Positions 530 to 48,899 of a stretch of DNA of 64,000 nucleotides are shown one piece after another. The first letter of the stretch is position 1. Each line of letters begins with the position of its first letter. The DNA comes from Ovis canadensis (Eukaryota > Chordata > Mammalia > Artiodactyla > Bovidae): contig NC_091255.1 in assembly GCF_042477335.2 (NCBI RefSeq), forward strand, positions 33,830,501 to 33,894,500, read 5' to 3'. The position numbers and the translations under genes were made by a program. The notes beneath the pieces are model-generated. The model searched no databases, had not been told where the DNA came from, and saw only the letters and a list, made by a program, of their open reading frames with translations.

Positions 530-619
530 ACTCGCTTGGCTAGATGCTGAAACTTCCAAAAGATTGAAGGAATTAGAAGAATTAAAAGCCGAACAAATGG
601 ACAAAATGCAAAAACAGAG
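530..619 (+). CDS. KIAA0753: KIAA0753 coding exon (1st in window)
   Basis: A 90-nt internal exon with acceptor ...tctgctag and donor gtaactg. Its first base closes a codon begun upstream and its last two bases open the next, so it is symmetric and could be skipped or duplicated without a frameshift. It encodes [18 protein letters not shown] followed by a Lys/Glu/Gln-rich, Met-spaced stretch, consistent with an amphipathic or coiled-coil helix. A decayed relative of this exon lies 334 bp downstream (864-953). Later exons join in frame, which supports the borders. Confidence 0.9.
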
Positions 620-863
620 GTAACTGTCTGTTTTCTGAGGTAGAGAAAAACACAGCAGACCTATTTTATATCATCTAGCTATTTTTACAACTTGTTGGGA
701 TTGTTTTTTGGTGTAGTCACACTTTTCATGTCTCTTGTCCATCAGACTGTTTAAAGTTCTTTGAAGTCACCTAAGAAGCCAACAACGGAGCTCAGACAGG
801 AGCCCCTGGGAGTCCTGGCTGGTTTGGGGAGAGTTGGGGTGACTCTGTGATAGTATCCTTTAG

Positions 864-953
864 GCTCCATTAGCTTGATGCTGAAACTTCCAGAAGAACA
901 AAGGAATTAAATGAGCTGAAAACTGAAGAAAGGGATAGTTGTCAGAAACTGAG
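864..953 (+). pseudogene. KIAA0753: Decayed duplicate of the 530-619 exon
   Basis: This block aligns to the exon at 530-619 over all 90 positions with no gap. I count about 64 of 90 identical bases, including the core 'gatgctgaaacttcc' and 'aaggaatta'. The AG that would precede it (862-863) is intact. The donor is lost: bases 954-955 are AT where the live exon has GT. Codon 4 reads TAG (871-873) where the live exon has TGG. Because the parent exon is symmetric, a tandem copy would have kept frame when it arose. I infer an old intragenic exon duplication that is now dead. Confidence 0.8.
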
Positions 954-1999
954 ATATGTGTTAGCTTCTGAAGGGTGGTGCATGCTTGCCTATTCTTAAA
1001 TTGGTCTGGACACTTTCACCACCATCCTGGACTGTGTGGGCCTGACCTCACCAAATGAATGAATGAATGAGTGTCTGCATGCCTGCATGTATTTTGCACA
1101 GTATTTTTTCTAGGAAGTATTTCTTTTGTGTGCAGTTTGAATGATATCTACAGTTTAGGGGGAGTTTTATCTGAAAGATCAGTGTTATGTCTGTTTGTGT
1201 TTCCGCTGGAGATGCTTGTCTCCTGGCCAGGTGGGGTGTACATGTGCAGCCTGCTAGGATACTTCTGCTTCACAGGTTAGCTTGAGCACAGCCTAAGGTT
1301 TTCGAGTGAGGTTGCTTTTCCCATTTGCCCCCAAGAGTGTCACCACCTAAATCCAGGCACGAAGAAGTTCATGAGCGGGCTTAGTTGTTACTGCTGCAGT
1401 TGGCTCATCTGTCTTGCTCTCATAATGAGTCACCCTGAAGTCACGTGAACAGAATCCTCATTGACACAGCTGTGCATTCTATCACCAGTCATGAGAGAGC
1501 GTCCACTCCCAGGTTAAAAGGGCTGTGGCCCTTTTGTTAGAGGGTGAGTGTCGTGAACCACTACCACCCCCAAACCAAGAGATAGGTCAGCACCCCTACT
1601 CTCAAACTCCCTGTGGGTCCCTCCTCAGTTGCATCTCTTTCTTTTTTCCCACAGTTCACCACTGTCCTGATTCCTGTCTTCATCTTTTCATTTCTTGTAT
1701 TCATAAATCTGTTACCCTGTGTGTGTCCCTAACGGCATATTATTTCATCCGGGCAGCTGAGAAGCAGGCCCAAACCTGGAAAGGCAGTGCTGCTGGGATT
1801 AGATGAGGATTCCCGGGAAAGCAGGCAACGCAGGGTCCTTCCTAAACTTCCTGGGAGTTTTTAGGTGCCCGTCCGGAAAGTTTATAGATCATGAATGAGT
1901 CCTGGCAAATGTAGGGCTTACCACATTTGGGGCATCTGGAGATGAGCGAGGTGCAGTGGACCTCTGGAAGAGGCCTGGTCAGGGGAACAGTGGGCTGCC
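954..1999 (+). other. Intron, nothing recognised
   Basis: KIAA0753 intron sequence with a short AATG run near 1055-1070. No exon or clear repeat family was identified; short open frames here have no coding character. Confidence 0.5.
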
Positions 2000-3759: not shown

Positions 3760-3838
3760 TGTTTCCACCACCCAGTTAGCAGACAAGGTAGAGAAGGCAG
3801 TTCTGGAGCGTTTGAAGCCTCTCCTGGCCAAGGCCCAG
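3760..3838 (+). CDS. KIAA0753: KIAA0753 coding exon (2nd in window)
   Basis: A 79-nt exon with acceptor ttctaaatag and donor gtaatc. It takes the two-base overhang from 530-619 and ends on a codon boundary. It encodes STTQLADKVEKAVLERLKPL and ends in AKAQ, a basic/acidic alternating helix that continues the preceding charged segment. The following exon begins in frame with RVNSSLEV, as expected for KIAA0753. Confidence 0.92.
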
Positions 3839-4891: not shown

Positions 4892-4975
4892 AGAGTCAAT
4901 TCTTCTCTGGAAGTAGATACTCATTTGAAGGATCAGCCATCAGAAATCGCAACAACAGCCCAGCCTGCAGAGGAG
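4892..4975 (+). CDS. KIAA0753: KIAA0753 coding exon (3rd in window)
   Basis: An 84-nt exon of exactly 28 codons in phase 0-0, with acceptor tgttttaatag and donor gtgcgt. It encodes RVNSSLEVDTHLKDQPSEIA followed by TTAQPAEE. The composition is polar and probably disordered, a linker after the charged helical region. Being symmetric, it could be skipped in frame. Confidence 0.9.
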
Positions 4976-6999
4976 GTGCGTGTGGTGGGCCTGGCGTTCT
5001 GGACTGACATTGGGATTATTATAGGATAATGTCCTTGAGTATAAGGAAGAATGATACATAGATGACCCTACAGACACTAGACTGTCCCATTCCGGAGGGT
5101 GGAGGTCGTTTTTCACATCTGGCATGTTAATGCTTACAGTGTATCTTTAGCATTATGACATCGATGAGCCTTGTGAACAGCTCACAGAAAGCTCTTGAGC
5201 CACAGGTTTTTGTCAGCGGCTCTTTCCTTTCCTCCCAGTGACAGAGTGTGGGTAGCTGCATGAGCCTGAATGTTGATGGCCCGCGGCAGAACAATGACTG
5301 CCCTCATTTCCTCTTGTTCAGCCTAGTTTTGCTCATTACTGGCCTAATTTCCTTTATACTGAGGGCCTAATAAGTATTGTTAGGCAAGCATGTTTTGAGT
5401 GCCTAGTAATGACCAGTATCTGGCCTGGCAGAGGCAAAAGGTGGCCCAGGAACAAATGATAACGTTTGAGAAAAATGAAAGCATAGCATGTGGTTGTCCG
5501 CCGCTGTGCTCTTCCTCTGGACGTGTGTTCATCATTAGTGGGAATGTTGCCCTCCCTGCCCTTCCACCTCTGCGAAGGGACAAGAAGGTGCAGGCTGCCT
5601 CCGGCGGCTGTTCATGGAGGGCGGAGAGAAGTTAACTGCTTTCTGTGTTCAGAGCAAGTGAAGGGCCGAGCAAGGGTGACGGTCTCAGAGTGAGAAGGAA
5701 ATTGGAATGCTGCTCCACCAGCCCAACGACCTGAGGAACAGGAAGATGGTAGATTCCAAGGATGTATCCCAGTTCTAATTATTAAGCAGTCGTTTAGCTT
5801 TAGCATATTTTTGTAATTTTTACAGTTGTAATTTTATTGTACCAGTATTTTATGACAGAATCTCATGCGAGGTGAGGCATCTGAGACTGGAAGCTGAAAC
5901 CCTGCATCTGGCTCTTACAGACCAAGTGCGTGATGGCTGTGTCTTTTGTACAGAAAAGTAATGAGATTCACCTCTCATCTAGGGAGGCGATTCATGTGGT
6001 ATTTTCATAGGAAAGAGAAATGAAGTGGTCATAAATGCTGTCAGTGAACTAGACATGTTTGAATATTACTAGAAATGATCAGCTTTGTACATGAGAACCA
6101 TGCTGTAGGCATTAAATGGGCTTTAATACAGTTTCTTAAAAAGGAAAAGTAACTCTGTCCAGTATTTACCATTCTCAGCTGCTGTTAAACTTCAGCATCA
6201 CCACACAAGAGTTTCCTAGGCAGCACCATTGAGGGTCAGTGTTTATAAATAACTGAATAGAAGCAAACTTGTTGAAGTTGGCATGATGAAGTTAAAGAAG
6301 AGATATTTTGCTGTGTTAATTTATTAAAGAGCTGTGGGACCTTGATCCCAGATACCCAGAATTCTCATCTCTCAAAGGGAGGAGACGTTTGCTGCACTTT
6401 GCAAATCAGCTCTAGCTCTCAGTAGATTTGCTTGCAGACAGGATGATCTCTGGTGTCAGGAAATAGATTTTGGGAGGGTGCCATCATGGCATATTTGTCT
6501 CCTGCTGCTACTATTGTCATTAACTGAACTTGCGCATGAAATACATTTTTCCAAAGTGTGTAAGGTTTTCCCTTAATTAAAAGCTGTACCTGGATAAAAA
6601 GGCAAACAATTCAGGAAAAGTATCATGTAAAAAGTAAAATCTCCCCACCAATGGGTACTATATGCTCATCTGTATCCAGCTTCTTTATATTTTGGTGATC
6701 TTTTTCATATCAGCTCATTGGGTCCTTCCTTATCTCACAGGATTCTTGATATTTGATTCTTTAAACATTAAAAATGAAAATAACAGATACACACGTCTTA
6801 ACTAACTAGACCTGCATTACTGGTTTAGTTAGCTCTAGATTTCTTGGTAACTTTATTGTATTGGCTATTCAGCTGATTTTTATTTCTTTAACTTTGGTCA
6901 AGGTTGAACACTTCTTTCTTGGTCATTAATGTATTTTCTTCTGTAAACCGTTAAAAGGTTTTAAAGATTACTATGGTGGTAACCGTTCTTTGTGCCAAT
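4976..6999 (+). other. Intron, nothing recognised
   Basis: The first 2 kb of a 5.4 kb KIAA0753 intron. Overlapping short open frames around 5380-5810 occur on both strands and in several frames, with no splice-site or family support. No repeat family was identified. Confidence 0.5.
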
Positions 7000-10388: not shown

Positions 10389-10574
10389 GCTACAGCTGTT
10401 GATGGCGAATCCAGTAACATTCATCAGCTGGATGGTTCTTCGGAAAATACCGCTCACGAGTCCTGGCCCGTGACTCACTCCAAGATCTGGGAGTCTGATG
10501 CCTCGTCCGCCTTAGGGGACGGCAAGGGCAGCCTGTACCTGGAGGCGATGATGCTCCGGATGGAGGAAATGGAA
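10389..10574 (+). CDS. KIAA0753: KIAA0753 coding exon (4th in window)
   Basis: A 186-nt exon of 62 codons in phase 0-0, with acceptor ttttgcag and donor gtaggt. The N-terminal part is Ser/Asp-rich and probably disordered (AVDGESSNIHQLDGSSEN). The C-terminal part, YLEAMMLRMEEME, is an acidic Met/Leu-rich helix that continues directly into [12 protein letters not shown] of the next exon. This junction is one of the strongest matches to my recollection of KIAA0753. The exon is symmetric, so skipping would remove 62 residues without a frameshift. Confidence 0.93.
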
Positions 10575-12331: not shown

Positions 12332-12413
12332 AAATACCAGGAGACAGTTCGCCAAAGATATAATAAAATTGTATATACCGACCCTCATTTTTGGATGCAG
12401 GAAGAAAAAAATG
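12332..12413 (+). CDS. KIAA0753: KIAA0753 coding exon (5th in window)
   Basis: An 82-nt exon entering in phase 0 and leaving one base (G) for the next exon, with donor gtgagt. It encodes [20 protein letters not shown] followed by WMQEEKN. The mix of aromatic and basic residues suggests a conserved, structured segment after the acidic helix. The split codon completes as Asp with the exon at 17341. Confidence 0.94.
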
Positions 12414-17340: not shown

Positions 17341-17461
17341 ACCAGAAATTTCCAGCAGTAAGTGAAAGGCCTCTTTCTCCTCATCCAATCAGGATCACAA
17401 AGACTGCAGCTCGAAAAGACCCAGATGTGAACATCGTGTTAGAAGGGCCCTGCAGTGGCGC
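17341..17461 (+). CDS. KIAA0753: KIAA0753 coding exon (6th in window)
   Basis: A 121-nt exon. The incoming G plus AC gives Asp, and it ends two bases into a codon before donor gtaagt. It encodes [20 protein letters not shown], then a basic stretch, and ends with [11 protein letters not shown]. Pro/Ser/Arg-rich and probably flexible. The next exon supplies T to complete Ala and continues [10 protein letters not shown], matching my recollection of KIAA0753. Confidence 0.93.
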
Positions 17462-17944: not shown

Positions 17945-18169
17945 TTCTCTGGATGAAAGTGTGGGAACAGAGGAGAGATCGGAGAAAAGAGAAGCTCCCC
18001 TTCCTTCCCTTTCAGAAGATGCTCAACAGACAGAAGGCCGAGCTGCCCTCTTTGTCCCGCCGGTCATGCGTCGTAGCATCGTTGACTACTGCCGCCGTTT
18101 CGAGCACTACCTGCGGGTGATTGCGCACGAGGCCGTGGGCTCCTTCAACCCATGGCTCATAGCTGAAAG
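17945..18169 (+). CDS. KIAA0753: KIAA0753 coding exon (7th in window)
   Basis: A 225-nt symmetric exon (phase 2-2) with acceptor tgctctcag and donor gtcagg. It begins [20 protein letters not shown], an acidic disordered segment, and ends in a conserved folded-looking region including [20 protein letters not shown], then [14 protein letters not shown]. The aromatic/basic C-terminal half continues directly into [12 protein letters not shown] of the last exon. The intron before it is only 483 bp, while the one after is 11.4 kb. Confidence 0.95.
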
Positions 18170-21389: not shown

Positions 21390-22595
21390 TAACACGTGAA
21401 CTTCCAGATATTCAAGCTGGTTTTAGAAAAGGCAGAGCAACCAGAGATCAAATTGTCAGCATCTGTTGGATCATGGAGAAAAGCAAGAGAGTTCCAGAAA
21501 AACATCTATTTCTGCTTTATTGACTATGCCAAAGCCTTTGACTACGTGGATCACAATAAACTGTGGAAAATTCTGAAAGAGATGGGAATACCAGACCACC
21601 TGACCTGCCTCTTGAGAAACCTATATGCAGGTCAGTTAGAACTGAACATGGAACAACAGACTGGTTCCAAAGAGGAAAAGGAGTACGTCAAGGCTGTATA
21701 TTGTCACCCTGCTTATTTAACTTCTATGCAGAGTACCTCATGAGAAACACTGGACTGGAAGAAGCACAAGCTGGAATCAAGATTGCCAGGAGAAATATCA
21801 GTAACCTCAGATATGCAGATGACACCACCCTTAACAGCCGAAAGTGAAGAGGAACTCAAAAGCCTCTTGATGAAAGTGAAAGAGGAGAGTGGAAAAGTTG
21901 GTTTAAAGCTCAACATTCAGAAAACAAAGATCATGGCATCTGGTCCTATCACTTCATGGGAAATAGATGGGGAAACAATGGAAACAGTGTCAGACTTTAT
22001 TTTGGGGCTCCAAAATTACTGCAGATGGTGACTGCCGCCATGAAATTAAAAGACGCTTACTCCTTGGAAGAAAAGTTATGACCAACCTAGATAGCATATT
22101 CGAAAGCAGAGACATTTCTTTGCCAACAAAGGTCCGTCTAGTCAAGGCTATGGTTTTTCCAGTGGTTGTATATGGATGTGAGAGTTGGACTGTGAAGAAA
22201 GCTGAGCACCAAAGAATGATGCTTTTGAACTGTGGTGTTGGAGAAGACTCTTGAGAGTCCCTTGGACTGCAAGGAGATCCAACCAGTCCATTCTAGAGGA
22301 GGTCAGTCCTGGGTGTTCTTTGGAAGGAATGATGCTAAAGCTGAAACTCCAGTACTTTGGCCACCTCATGCAAAGTTGACTCATTGGAAAAGACTCTGAT
22401 GCTGGGAGGGATTGGGGGCAGGAGGAGAAGGGGACGACCGAGGATGAGATGGCTGGATGGCATTACCGATTCGATGGACATGAGTTTGAGTGAACTCCGG
22501 GAGTTGGTGATGGACAGGGATGCCTGGCGTGCTGCGATTCATGGGGTCGCAAAGTGTCGGACACGACTGAGTGACTGAATTGAACTGAACTGAGC
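21390..22595 (+). mobile_element. BovB (RTE) LINE 3' half, sense, about 1.2 kb
   Basis: It opens in the reverse-transcriptase palm, with FIDYAKAFDYVDHNKLW. The reading frame is broken into several pieces (about 21396-21743, 21563-21847, 21783-22031 and 21967-22254). The catalytic box here still reads YADD (near 21815). It ends with the typical BovB 3' tail 'gaattgaactgaactgagc'. It is 5'-truncated and frameshifted, hence inactive. Its whole length is complementary in orientation to the 3' part of the antisense copy at 7988-10125. Confidence 0.93.
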
Positions 22596-23913: not shown

Positions 23914-24765
23914 AGCCTTTTGGCTCTCTGCGTAGTACCATGGTGGTTAGCATGAGTAAGCATCTTATGAAAGGAGGTGAAAAGGGAGCCAAGAAGAAAG
24001 TGGTTGACCTATTTTCTAAGAAACATTGGTATGAAGTGAAAGGACCAACTATGTTCAATATAAGAAATATTGGGAAAACACTAGTCACAAGAACTCAACT
24101 CAAATCACATATGATGGCCTCAAGGGTCATGTTTTTGACGTGAGCCTTGCTGATCTGTGACTGATACAGCTGCATTTAGAAAATTCAAGCTAATTACTGG
24201 GGATGCTCAGGGCAAACGCTGCCTGATTAATTTCCATGATGTGATCTGACAAAATGCTCCATGGTCAAACAATGGCTGACCATGACTGAAGCTTGCGTTG
24301 GTGTCAAGACCACCAGCAGTTATTTGTTTCCTCTGTTCTGTGTGGGTTTTACTAAAAAAAGGCAACAAAAAGATTTGGAAGACCTCTTATGCCCAGCACC
24401 ATCAGTTTCACCAAATCCACAAGATGGTGGAAATCATGACCCGAGAGCTGCAGACAGGTGACATGAAAGAGGCAGTCAGTAAACTGATTCCAGACAGCAG
24501 TGGAAAAGGCAGAGAAACTTGCCAATCTGTTTATCTGCTCCGTGACATTATTGTTAGAAAAGTAAAAATGCTGAGGAAGCCTAAGTTTGAGTGGGGAAAA
24601 CTCATGGAGCTGCACGTGAAGGTAGTCATTCTGGAAAAGCTACTGGGGAGGAGACAGGTGCTAAAGTTGGACAAACTGATGGATACGAGCCACCAGTCCA
24701 TGAATCTGCTTAAAACTCAGACTTCAATGGTGACAAATAAAATATATCTTGTTTGGGGGTGGGGG
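23914..24765 (+). pseudogene. RPS3A: RPS3A processed pseudogene
   Basis: An intronless copy of the ribosomal protein S3A mRNA (264 residues in mammals). It starts in the 5' UTR ('ccttttggctctctg') and continues through ATG at 23940 into [20 protein letters not shown] and [16 protein letters not shown]. Later blocks include [38 protein letters not shown] and FVRKVKM-like text (here [15 protein letters not shown]). The frame is broken by stops and shifts, for example TGA after about 66 codons and another near 24246. It ends in the 3' UTR with 'aataaaatata'. Similar flanks (agaaaaaattagag at about 23901, agaaaagttagag at about 24769) suggest a target-site duplication. It lies in the last KIAA0753 intron, in sense, and is nonfunctional. 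Confidence 0.92.
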
Positions 24766-47739: not shown

Positions 47740-48665
47740 TCCCGTCGGGGTTTCGGCCCCAGAGGTGTCTCTAGTGCCCAGTGTCCGTGGCTCTCGCCCC
47801 CGACTCCAGGTCCGCGTGCCCATCTCCGCCCGGACCGCAGTGTCTCCGCGTCTCCGCGCCCGTCCGGGGCTCGGAGCGGAGCGTGTTGGAGCGGCGGCCG
47901 CGGCCCCGGGCGGGAGTGCGGGCCCGCGGGGGCGGCGTTGGGCGCCTTCCTCCGTCAGGCCCTCCCCGGCAGCGCGGGGGGGCCGGCGCGGCCGCCGCTC
48001 GGCGCCTTTAAGGGAGCGGGAGGGAGCGGCGAGGCGGCGGCGGCTGCGGTGGCGGCGGCCGCGGCGAGCGGGGCGGGGGCGCGGGGCGCGGCGCTCGGAG
48101 TCCGCTCGCGGCCGGAGGCGGCTGGGCGGCCGGGACTGGGCTGGGAGCCGCGAGGAGCGCGCGCAGCGCCGCCGGAGCCCGCCGCCCGGGCCATGGCCAA
48201 GGCGGGCCGTGCAGGTGAGGGCGGGCGCCGGGAGGGCCGGGCCGCCAGCGGGGGGAGGGACTCGCGCGGCTCGAGGTGGGGGGGCCGCCGGTCCAGGTGA
48301 GCCCCCGGCGCAGGTGGGCGGAGGTTCTGGGCGGGCCGAGCGGGCGGCTGCGCGGCCGGCCCCCTGGGAGCGTGGAGAGGGGGCTCCGCGCGCCCCGCGT
48401 CCTTCCTGCGCCCCCGGTCACCTCGTGGGACACCGCGTCCCCTCGCCACCGCCCCTCTGGAAAGGGCTAGGTCCGCGGCGCCCCTGCCCGGCCCGGCGGA
48501 GGGGAACAATCGCCACCCTCCCGAGACCCTGGGCAGACCCGGGCGCGGGGAACGAAGGCGAGGTCCCGCGGCTGCCGCTCTATCCCACGCCCCCCGCCCC
48601 AACCCCAGCGCCAACCAGGACGCGCCCCCTTGTCCTGCCGCTCTCGCTATCCAGGGCGCGACAAC
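47740..48665 (+). promoter_or_regulatory. PITPNM3: CpG-island promoter of PITPNM3
   Basis: About 0.9 kb of very GC-rich, CpG-dense sequence surrounding the first coding exon, in contrast to the sequence on both sides. It holds GC boxes (for example GGGGCGGGGG at 48070-48079), NotI-like GCGGCCGC at 47893-47900, and a CGG-rich stretch at about 48030-48065. There is no clear TATA box; TTTAAG at 48007-48012 is a weak candidate. I infer a dispersed-start CpG-island promoter with transcription beginning a little upstream of 48193. No ATG lies between about 48020 and the start codon. Confidence 0.88.
48193..48214 (+). CDS. PITPNM3: PITPNM3 exon 1, coding part
   Basis: ATG in a strong Kozak context (gggccATGG), followed by codons for MAKAGRA and one base of the next codon, then the donor GTGAGG at 48215. 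These seven residues and the split Gly codon match the N-terminus I recall for human PITPNM3 (NIR1). The CpG-island setting and the position downstream of KIAA0753 on the same strand fit the human 17p13 order. The full protein is a membrane-associated member of the PITPNM/Nir family with DDHD and LNS2 domains but no PITP domain. It is reported as a CCL18 receptor and linked to cone-rod dystrophy. Only seven residues are present, so the call relies on the exact N-terminus plus synteny. Confidence 0.85.
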
Positions 48666-48899
48666 CAACTACCCCCGCCTCCCCGCCCCCAGCTCAGGCA
48701 GGAGACCCAGATTTCTTCTGGGGAAGGAGGTGCTCCGCTCCACACCGGCTTGTGAGCCGTCCCGCCCCCTCCCCCTCCCGGACCCTGGGAAGCAGAGCCT
48801 CGGGGCCCGAAGTCTGAAGGGTGGGGGGGTGCTCTTCTGCGGTCCCCAGGGCTCTGCCCTCCCCCAGACCCAGGCCGTGTGGTCCGGGGTGTGAGGGAG

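Follow-up and report, generated by a model that had tools for sequence, protein, structure and literature searches.

The window, as the whole stretch of 64,000 nucleotides of Ovis canadensis DNA is called here, carries on its forward strand coding exons 10 to 18 of KIAA0753, the gene for Moonraker (OFIP). The first-pass annotation had named this gene from the letters alone, and matches to the Pfam profile PF15718 (MNR, Protein moonraker) along the locus bear it out. All 18 of the genome-wide matches listed for this profile fall at the locus, 15 of the 18 exceeding the cut-off on their own; among the matches listed, profile positions 1–964 are jointly covered with the exception of 644–670. Exon ends were set by hand at AG/GT sites that agree with the profile. 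The resulting chain of 18 exons encodes 970 amino acids; codon 646, which lies in exon 11 (864–953), is its only internal stop. Upon removal of this exon, the remaining 17 are all open and give a chain of 940 amino acids free of internal stops. AG acceptors are found at exons 2–18 (17 of 17) and GT donors at 16 of the 17 exons numbered 1–17, the exception being exon 11. A further candidate exon near 5826–5925, proposed by a crude exon scan, has no Pfam match and was discarded.

Table 1. Coding exons of KIAA0753 in the window, with the signals and lesions of exon 11
Feature	Position	Strand	Evidence
Coding exon 10 of KIAA0753/Moonraker, first 30-residue repeat	530..619	+	Pfam MNR 613-641, 33.8 bits; intact AG/GT
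Kept acceptor AG of putative dead exon 11	862..863	+	Read from sequence
Putative dead coding exon 11, second 30-residue repeat	864..953	+	64/90 to exon 10; fills profile 643-671 gap-free in joined chains
In-frame TAG stop; TGG in sister exon	871..873	+	Codon 646 of the 18-exon chain
Lost donor, AT for GT, remaining donor consensus kept (GAG/ATATGT)	954..955	+	Read from sequence
Coding exon 12	3760..3838	+	Pfam MNR 673-698, 34.8 bits
Coding exon 13	4892..4975	+	Pfam MNR from 699; alone weak, 14.2 bits
Coding exon 14	10389..10574	+	Pfam MNR up to 788
Coding exon 15, with K-Y-Q at its start like the human exon at c.2359	12332..12413	+	Pfam MNR 789-815; human variant numbering
Coding exon 16	17341..17461	+	Pfam MNR 816-856
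Coding exon 17	17945..18169	+	Pfam MNR 881-930 and 855-931 (separate searches)
Coding exon 18, the last, carrying the stop codon	29523..29640	+	Pfam MNR 929-964

The last intron of KIAA0753 also accommodates fragments of a LINE-type reverse transcriptase (21477–21874) and a candidate processed pseudogene of ribosomal protein S3Ae, RPS3A-like (23988–24582), both matches being split over two frames. Further along, 47841–48820 contains two strongly coding-like stretches, 47841–48214 and 48537–48820, in which Arg, Gly and Pro codons abound; they perhaps represent a CpG island and the first exon of the downstream gene. This neighbour is presumably PITPNM3. Sheep KIAA0753 and PITPNM3 have been placed on chromosome 11 at 24.88–25.88 Mb (PMC10376747).

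Searches for relatives beyond the locus returned none. An 84-residue Moonraker peptide gave no confirmed relative among genomic contigs (112 pattern matches) or viral contigs (14), a tblastn search of plasmids gave none, and neither exon 530–619 nor the C-terminal chain matched a solved structure. A retrocopy predating the proposed loss of the exon, which would have revealed its former use, was sought with the C-terminal protein and not found, as all nine matches listed (E up to 1) lie at the gene's own locus.

Two related exons and their splice signals

The first-pass annotation had described 864–953 as a decayed tandem relative of exon 530–619, free of gaps and with about 64 of 90 bases identical. 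An ungapped alignment gives exactly 64/90 with no gaps, and a repeat finder run on positions 1–2000 reports one direct family, 527–627 with 861–961, 71% identical over 101 nt at a spacing of 334 nt. When exon 530–619 is slid along the forward strand of the window, the mean is 22.3 identities (standard deviation 4.5), so that 864–953 stands 9 standard deviations higher; the runner-up placements reach 45 on the forward strand, by self-overlap, and 44 on the reverse. A likeness no better than that of shuffled intron, named in advance as evidence against kinship, was thus not observed. The core 15-mer GATGCTGAAACTTCC, with at most one mismatch, has two sites in the window, both in the pair, against an expectation of 0.02.

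The protein likeness of the pair was equalled in 43 of 5000 trials of a shuffle that retains the observed substitutions, which supports past coding selection on the two stretches taken together; as exon 10 is coding anyway, this frame signal is no evidence on exon 11 alone. The number of stops is uninformative, since one stop or fewer occurs in 48% of shuffles.

The earlier reading of the signals in 864–953 also stands in its particulars: the 3' splice-site AG is kept, AT takes the place of the donor GT, and TAG replaces TGG at what had been called codon 4, which is the third full codon of the exon and the fourth if the split codon is counted. The second stretch carries two disabling lesions. 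The repeat exon is symmetric, as claimed, being composed of 1 + 29×3 + 2 nt. Upon skipping of exon 11 exactly 30 codons are removed and the frame is kept, with AG + T leaving Ser at the new junction. By a simple donor matrix, the exon 11 donor with G restored at +1 would score 4.6; the donor of exon 10 scores 3.5, and those of six further exons of the window range from 1.8 to 6.1. The site is thus one base away from an ordinary donor.

U12-type AT-AC introns have the donor ATATCC and the acceptor AC. The donor here reads ATATGT and the next exon has an AG acceptor, so AT as a working donor of this type was rejected. Downstream of the dead exon, at 278 nt, a strong and unused-looking donor, CAG/GTGGGG, is located at 1231; among sites that score well, it is the closest one by which exon definition could be rescued.

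A simulation of neutral decay of a 90-nt exon has a broad likelihood top at 0.10–0.16 substitutions per site. Assumed mutation and indel rates translate this into an age of about 15 to more than 100 million years, on which the present interpretation does not rely.

Position of the repeats in the Moonraker profile and in the human gene

The PF15718 profile holds two consecutive repeats of 30 residues. Translated alone, exon 530–619 matches 613–641 (33.8 bits), 864–953 with X at the stop matches 644–670 (21 bits, short of the curated cut-off, which is 27) and exon 3760–3838 matches 673–698. Joined, these three exons produce a single gap-free match over 613–698 of 122.3 bits, with the split codons translating to R and S. 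Scrambling the second repeat by hand reduces the score to 76.9 bits, close to the 76.5 bits obtained when exon 10 is joined straight to exon 12; this latter chain, the expected present mRNA, is placed in the second repeat, at 643–698. The nine exons of the window, including 864–953 with X at the stop, match 613–964 without gaps at 611.3 bits; omission of 864–953 costs 49 bits, leaving 561.9 bits and coverage of 643–964 only.

The assignment of each exon to its slot is less sharply defined. On the two repeats alone the natural order scores 69.7 bits and the swapped order 57.0. In an anchored factorial comparison, in which the pair was anchored by its flanking exons on either side and each repeat had its first three residues masked, the natural arrangement (E1E2, with E1 for exon 530–619 and E2 for the dead exon) is the best of four at 167.3 bits, followed by E1E1 (165.6), E2E2 (157.7) and E2E1 (156.1). 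The preference of exon 530–619 for slot 1 thus amounts to about 9.6 bits; that of the dead exon for slot 2 is about 1.7 bits, despite its decay. Without masking, E1E1 reaches 182.2 bits against 180.1 for E1E2, and in the three-exon chain 124.2 against 122.3, so that the intact exon 10 suits repeat 2 about equally well. Chains with a single repeat score 119.0 bits with exon 10 and 136.2 with the dead exon; each was scored as two stretches and these values were not used, although the second, at face value, favours the dead exon. A six-frame search of the genome with the profile aligned the dead exon to repeat 1 (611–642) at 20.5 bits, below the cut-off (E 0.12). The profile score alone is a poor discriminator between the two repeats, and the slot assignment therefore rests on exon order, on the tiling of the profile and on human numbering.

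The human numbering, taken from published patient variants, serves as an independent check. A human synonymous variant has been reported to cause skipping of r.719_825 (PMC8472897), and coding exon 3 of the present gene, 107 nt long and preceded by 93 + 625 nt, occupies positions 719–825 exactly. Two human exon starts lie 813 nt apart, as marked by the splice variants c.1546-3C>A and c.2359-1G>C, of which the second deletes Lys787–Gln789 (PMC5686170). Here the starts of exons 8 and 15 are separated by 816 nt with exon 11 and by 726 nt without it, where c.1546 is taken as the start of exon 8, located at 1552 in the present gene. The human protein effect tabulated at Asp439 (PMC5686170) is compatible with exon 7 being skipped, since by arithmetic on the exon layout codon 439 here is the Asp that straddles the junction of exons 6 and 7. 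Likewise, the K of the KYQ motif is residue 787 in human, and here residue 790 with exon 11 and 760 without. A spacing of 813 nt, set beside 816 and 726, leaves room for a second repeat exon in the human reference transcript, and the human gene appears to keep this exon, as judged from published variant numbering.

Probable loss of exon 11 and competing explanations

In all likelihood, 864–953 is the fossil of a normal coding exon 11 of KIAA0753 that has been lost here, the pair stemming from an old tandem duplication whose products were both once coding. It carries inactivating lesions, the AT donor and the TAG at codon 646; the rest of the gene is open, with the frame kept on skipping; and use of the exon in relatives is indicated indirectly by the second repeat slot of the profile together with the human spacing (813 against 816/726 nt). 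The evidence also points the way of the suggestion in the first-pass annotation that the copy might be intact and used in other mammals.

The view of a decayed duplicate, taken in the same annotation, is not supported where it would mean a lineage-specific tandem copy of 530–619 that failed next to the genuine exon, decaying in the intron and never having been a standard exon. The likeness, the order, the kept AG and the lost GT would be expected equally under this scenario, which is nevertheless very unlikely: the family profile already places two repeats at this very point, 644–670 is covered by none of the other exons found in the genome, and the human exon spacing fits only with an extra 90 nt. 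Moreover, the intron flanks of the two stretches are dissimilar past the exons and their splice edges, which argues for an old duplication. It is because the profile holds both repeats and the human spacing has a place for the second that a lost normal exon is preferred to a side copy. The two exons were also considered as a mutually exclusive pair; both in the profile and by the human numbering the two repeats belong to the same chain, and this argues against exclusivity.

Similarly little credence is given to a regulated poison exon, in which the acceptor at 862–863 would be combined with a downstream donor and the TAG would trigger mRNA decay. The acceptor is indeed retained, and the donor at 1231 (5.7 by the simple matrix) would create an exon of 367 nt, with a fair alternative at 1276 (3.3); however, the exon's own donor is destroyed, no GT between 871 and 1230 scores above −1.0 and nothing points to use. 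An interspersed repeat or an assembly artefact resembling an exon can be practically discounted, as nothing was found in its favour, the two separate lesions interrupt a frame that in other respects resembles an exon, the rest of the host gene is intact, and 840–980, searched against the 2.97-Gb host genome (E up to 1), yields two matches, its own position and the parent exon 530–619, and no unrelated repeat elsewhere. This search omits very common words and scores the best candidates alone, which makes it strong but not absolute evidence; the 501 bases of 500–1000 likewise match the same genome at their own locus only.

For the loss of a normal exon 11, the following course of events is proposed. 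An old tandem exon duplication would have generated two adjacent 90-nt exons, each encoding a charged repeat of 30 residues, and both would have become normal coding exons. In the lineage of this ruminant the exon 11 donor would then have changed from GT to AT, and exon 11 would be expected, from the state of its donor, to be skipped, with exactly 30 residues removed and the frame kept. The skipped exon would have decayed afterwards, acquiring among other changes the TAG. The donor change, or skipping, probably preceded the stop, because, as long as the exon was included, a premature stop in it would have deprived an important ciliary protein of its last third; published human KIAA0753 nulls are severe (PMC5686170, PMC9314610), hence such a stop should not survive. 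The present protein is probably 940 residues long instead of 970, shorter by one helical repeat. It is an improbable extension that the loss is old and common to all ruminants or wider, and that having one repeat fewer, instead of being the neutral loss of a redundant unit, altered how far Moonraker reaches, or how it binds its partners, in the distal-appendage (DISCO) complex.

Defects in KIAA0753 underlie human ciliopathies (PMC5686170). A mammal that lacks this exon in frame would, if the reading is true, represent a natural test of whether the protein can do without the 30-residue unit, at least when the sister repeat is present, with a bearing on the interpretation of human variants in the second repeat exon and on exon skipping. 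For annotators and for alignments, 864–953 is not to be forced into a ruminant transcript.

Comparison with known systems

No exon loss in KIAA0753 was encountered in titles and abstract openings of a partly covered literature, which does not prove the absence of an earlier report. Conserved genes are known to lose single exons in frame: among the conserved genes still flagged after step 7 of one published analysis, 85–91% had lesions only in a single, not entirely conserved exon (PMC5865188). The present case resembles these single-exon inactivations in conserved mammalian genes in that splice-site and stop lesions reside in one exon while the gene is intact. It differs in that the lost exon adjoins an intact sister repeat, which may explain why exon 11 was dispensable, and in that the gene is a human ciliopathy gene. 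What is new is the loss of a tandem-repeat exon of such a gene beside its intact sister unit, and not a new mechanism.

A second parallel is provided by the tandem exon duplication of B7-H3, where duplicated exons likewise gave rise to tandem protein units whose number varies among mammals (PMC3172298). The units of B7-H3 are Ig-like domains present in two isoforms (PMC3172298), whereas here the unit is a charged repeat of 30 residues, one copy of which is dead. With respect to the PF15718 family itself, the exons of the locus tile profile positions 1–964 minus 644–670, the very gap that the dead exon fills in the joined chain; the deviation from the family pattern is that, of the two 30-residue repeats, this genome has the second in broken form.
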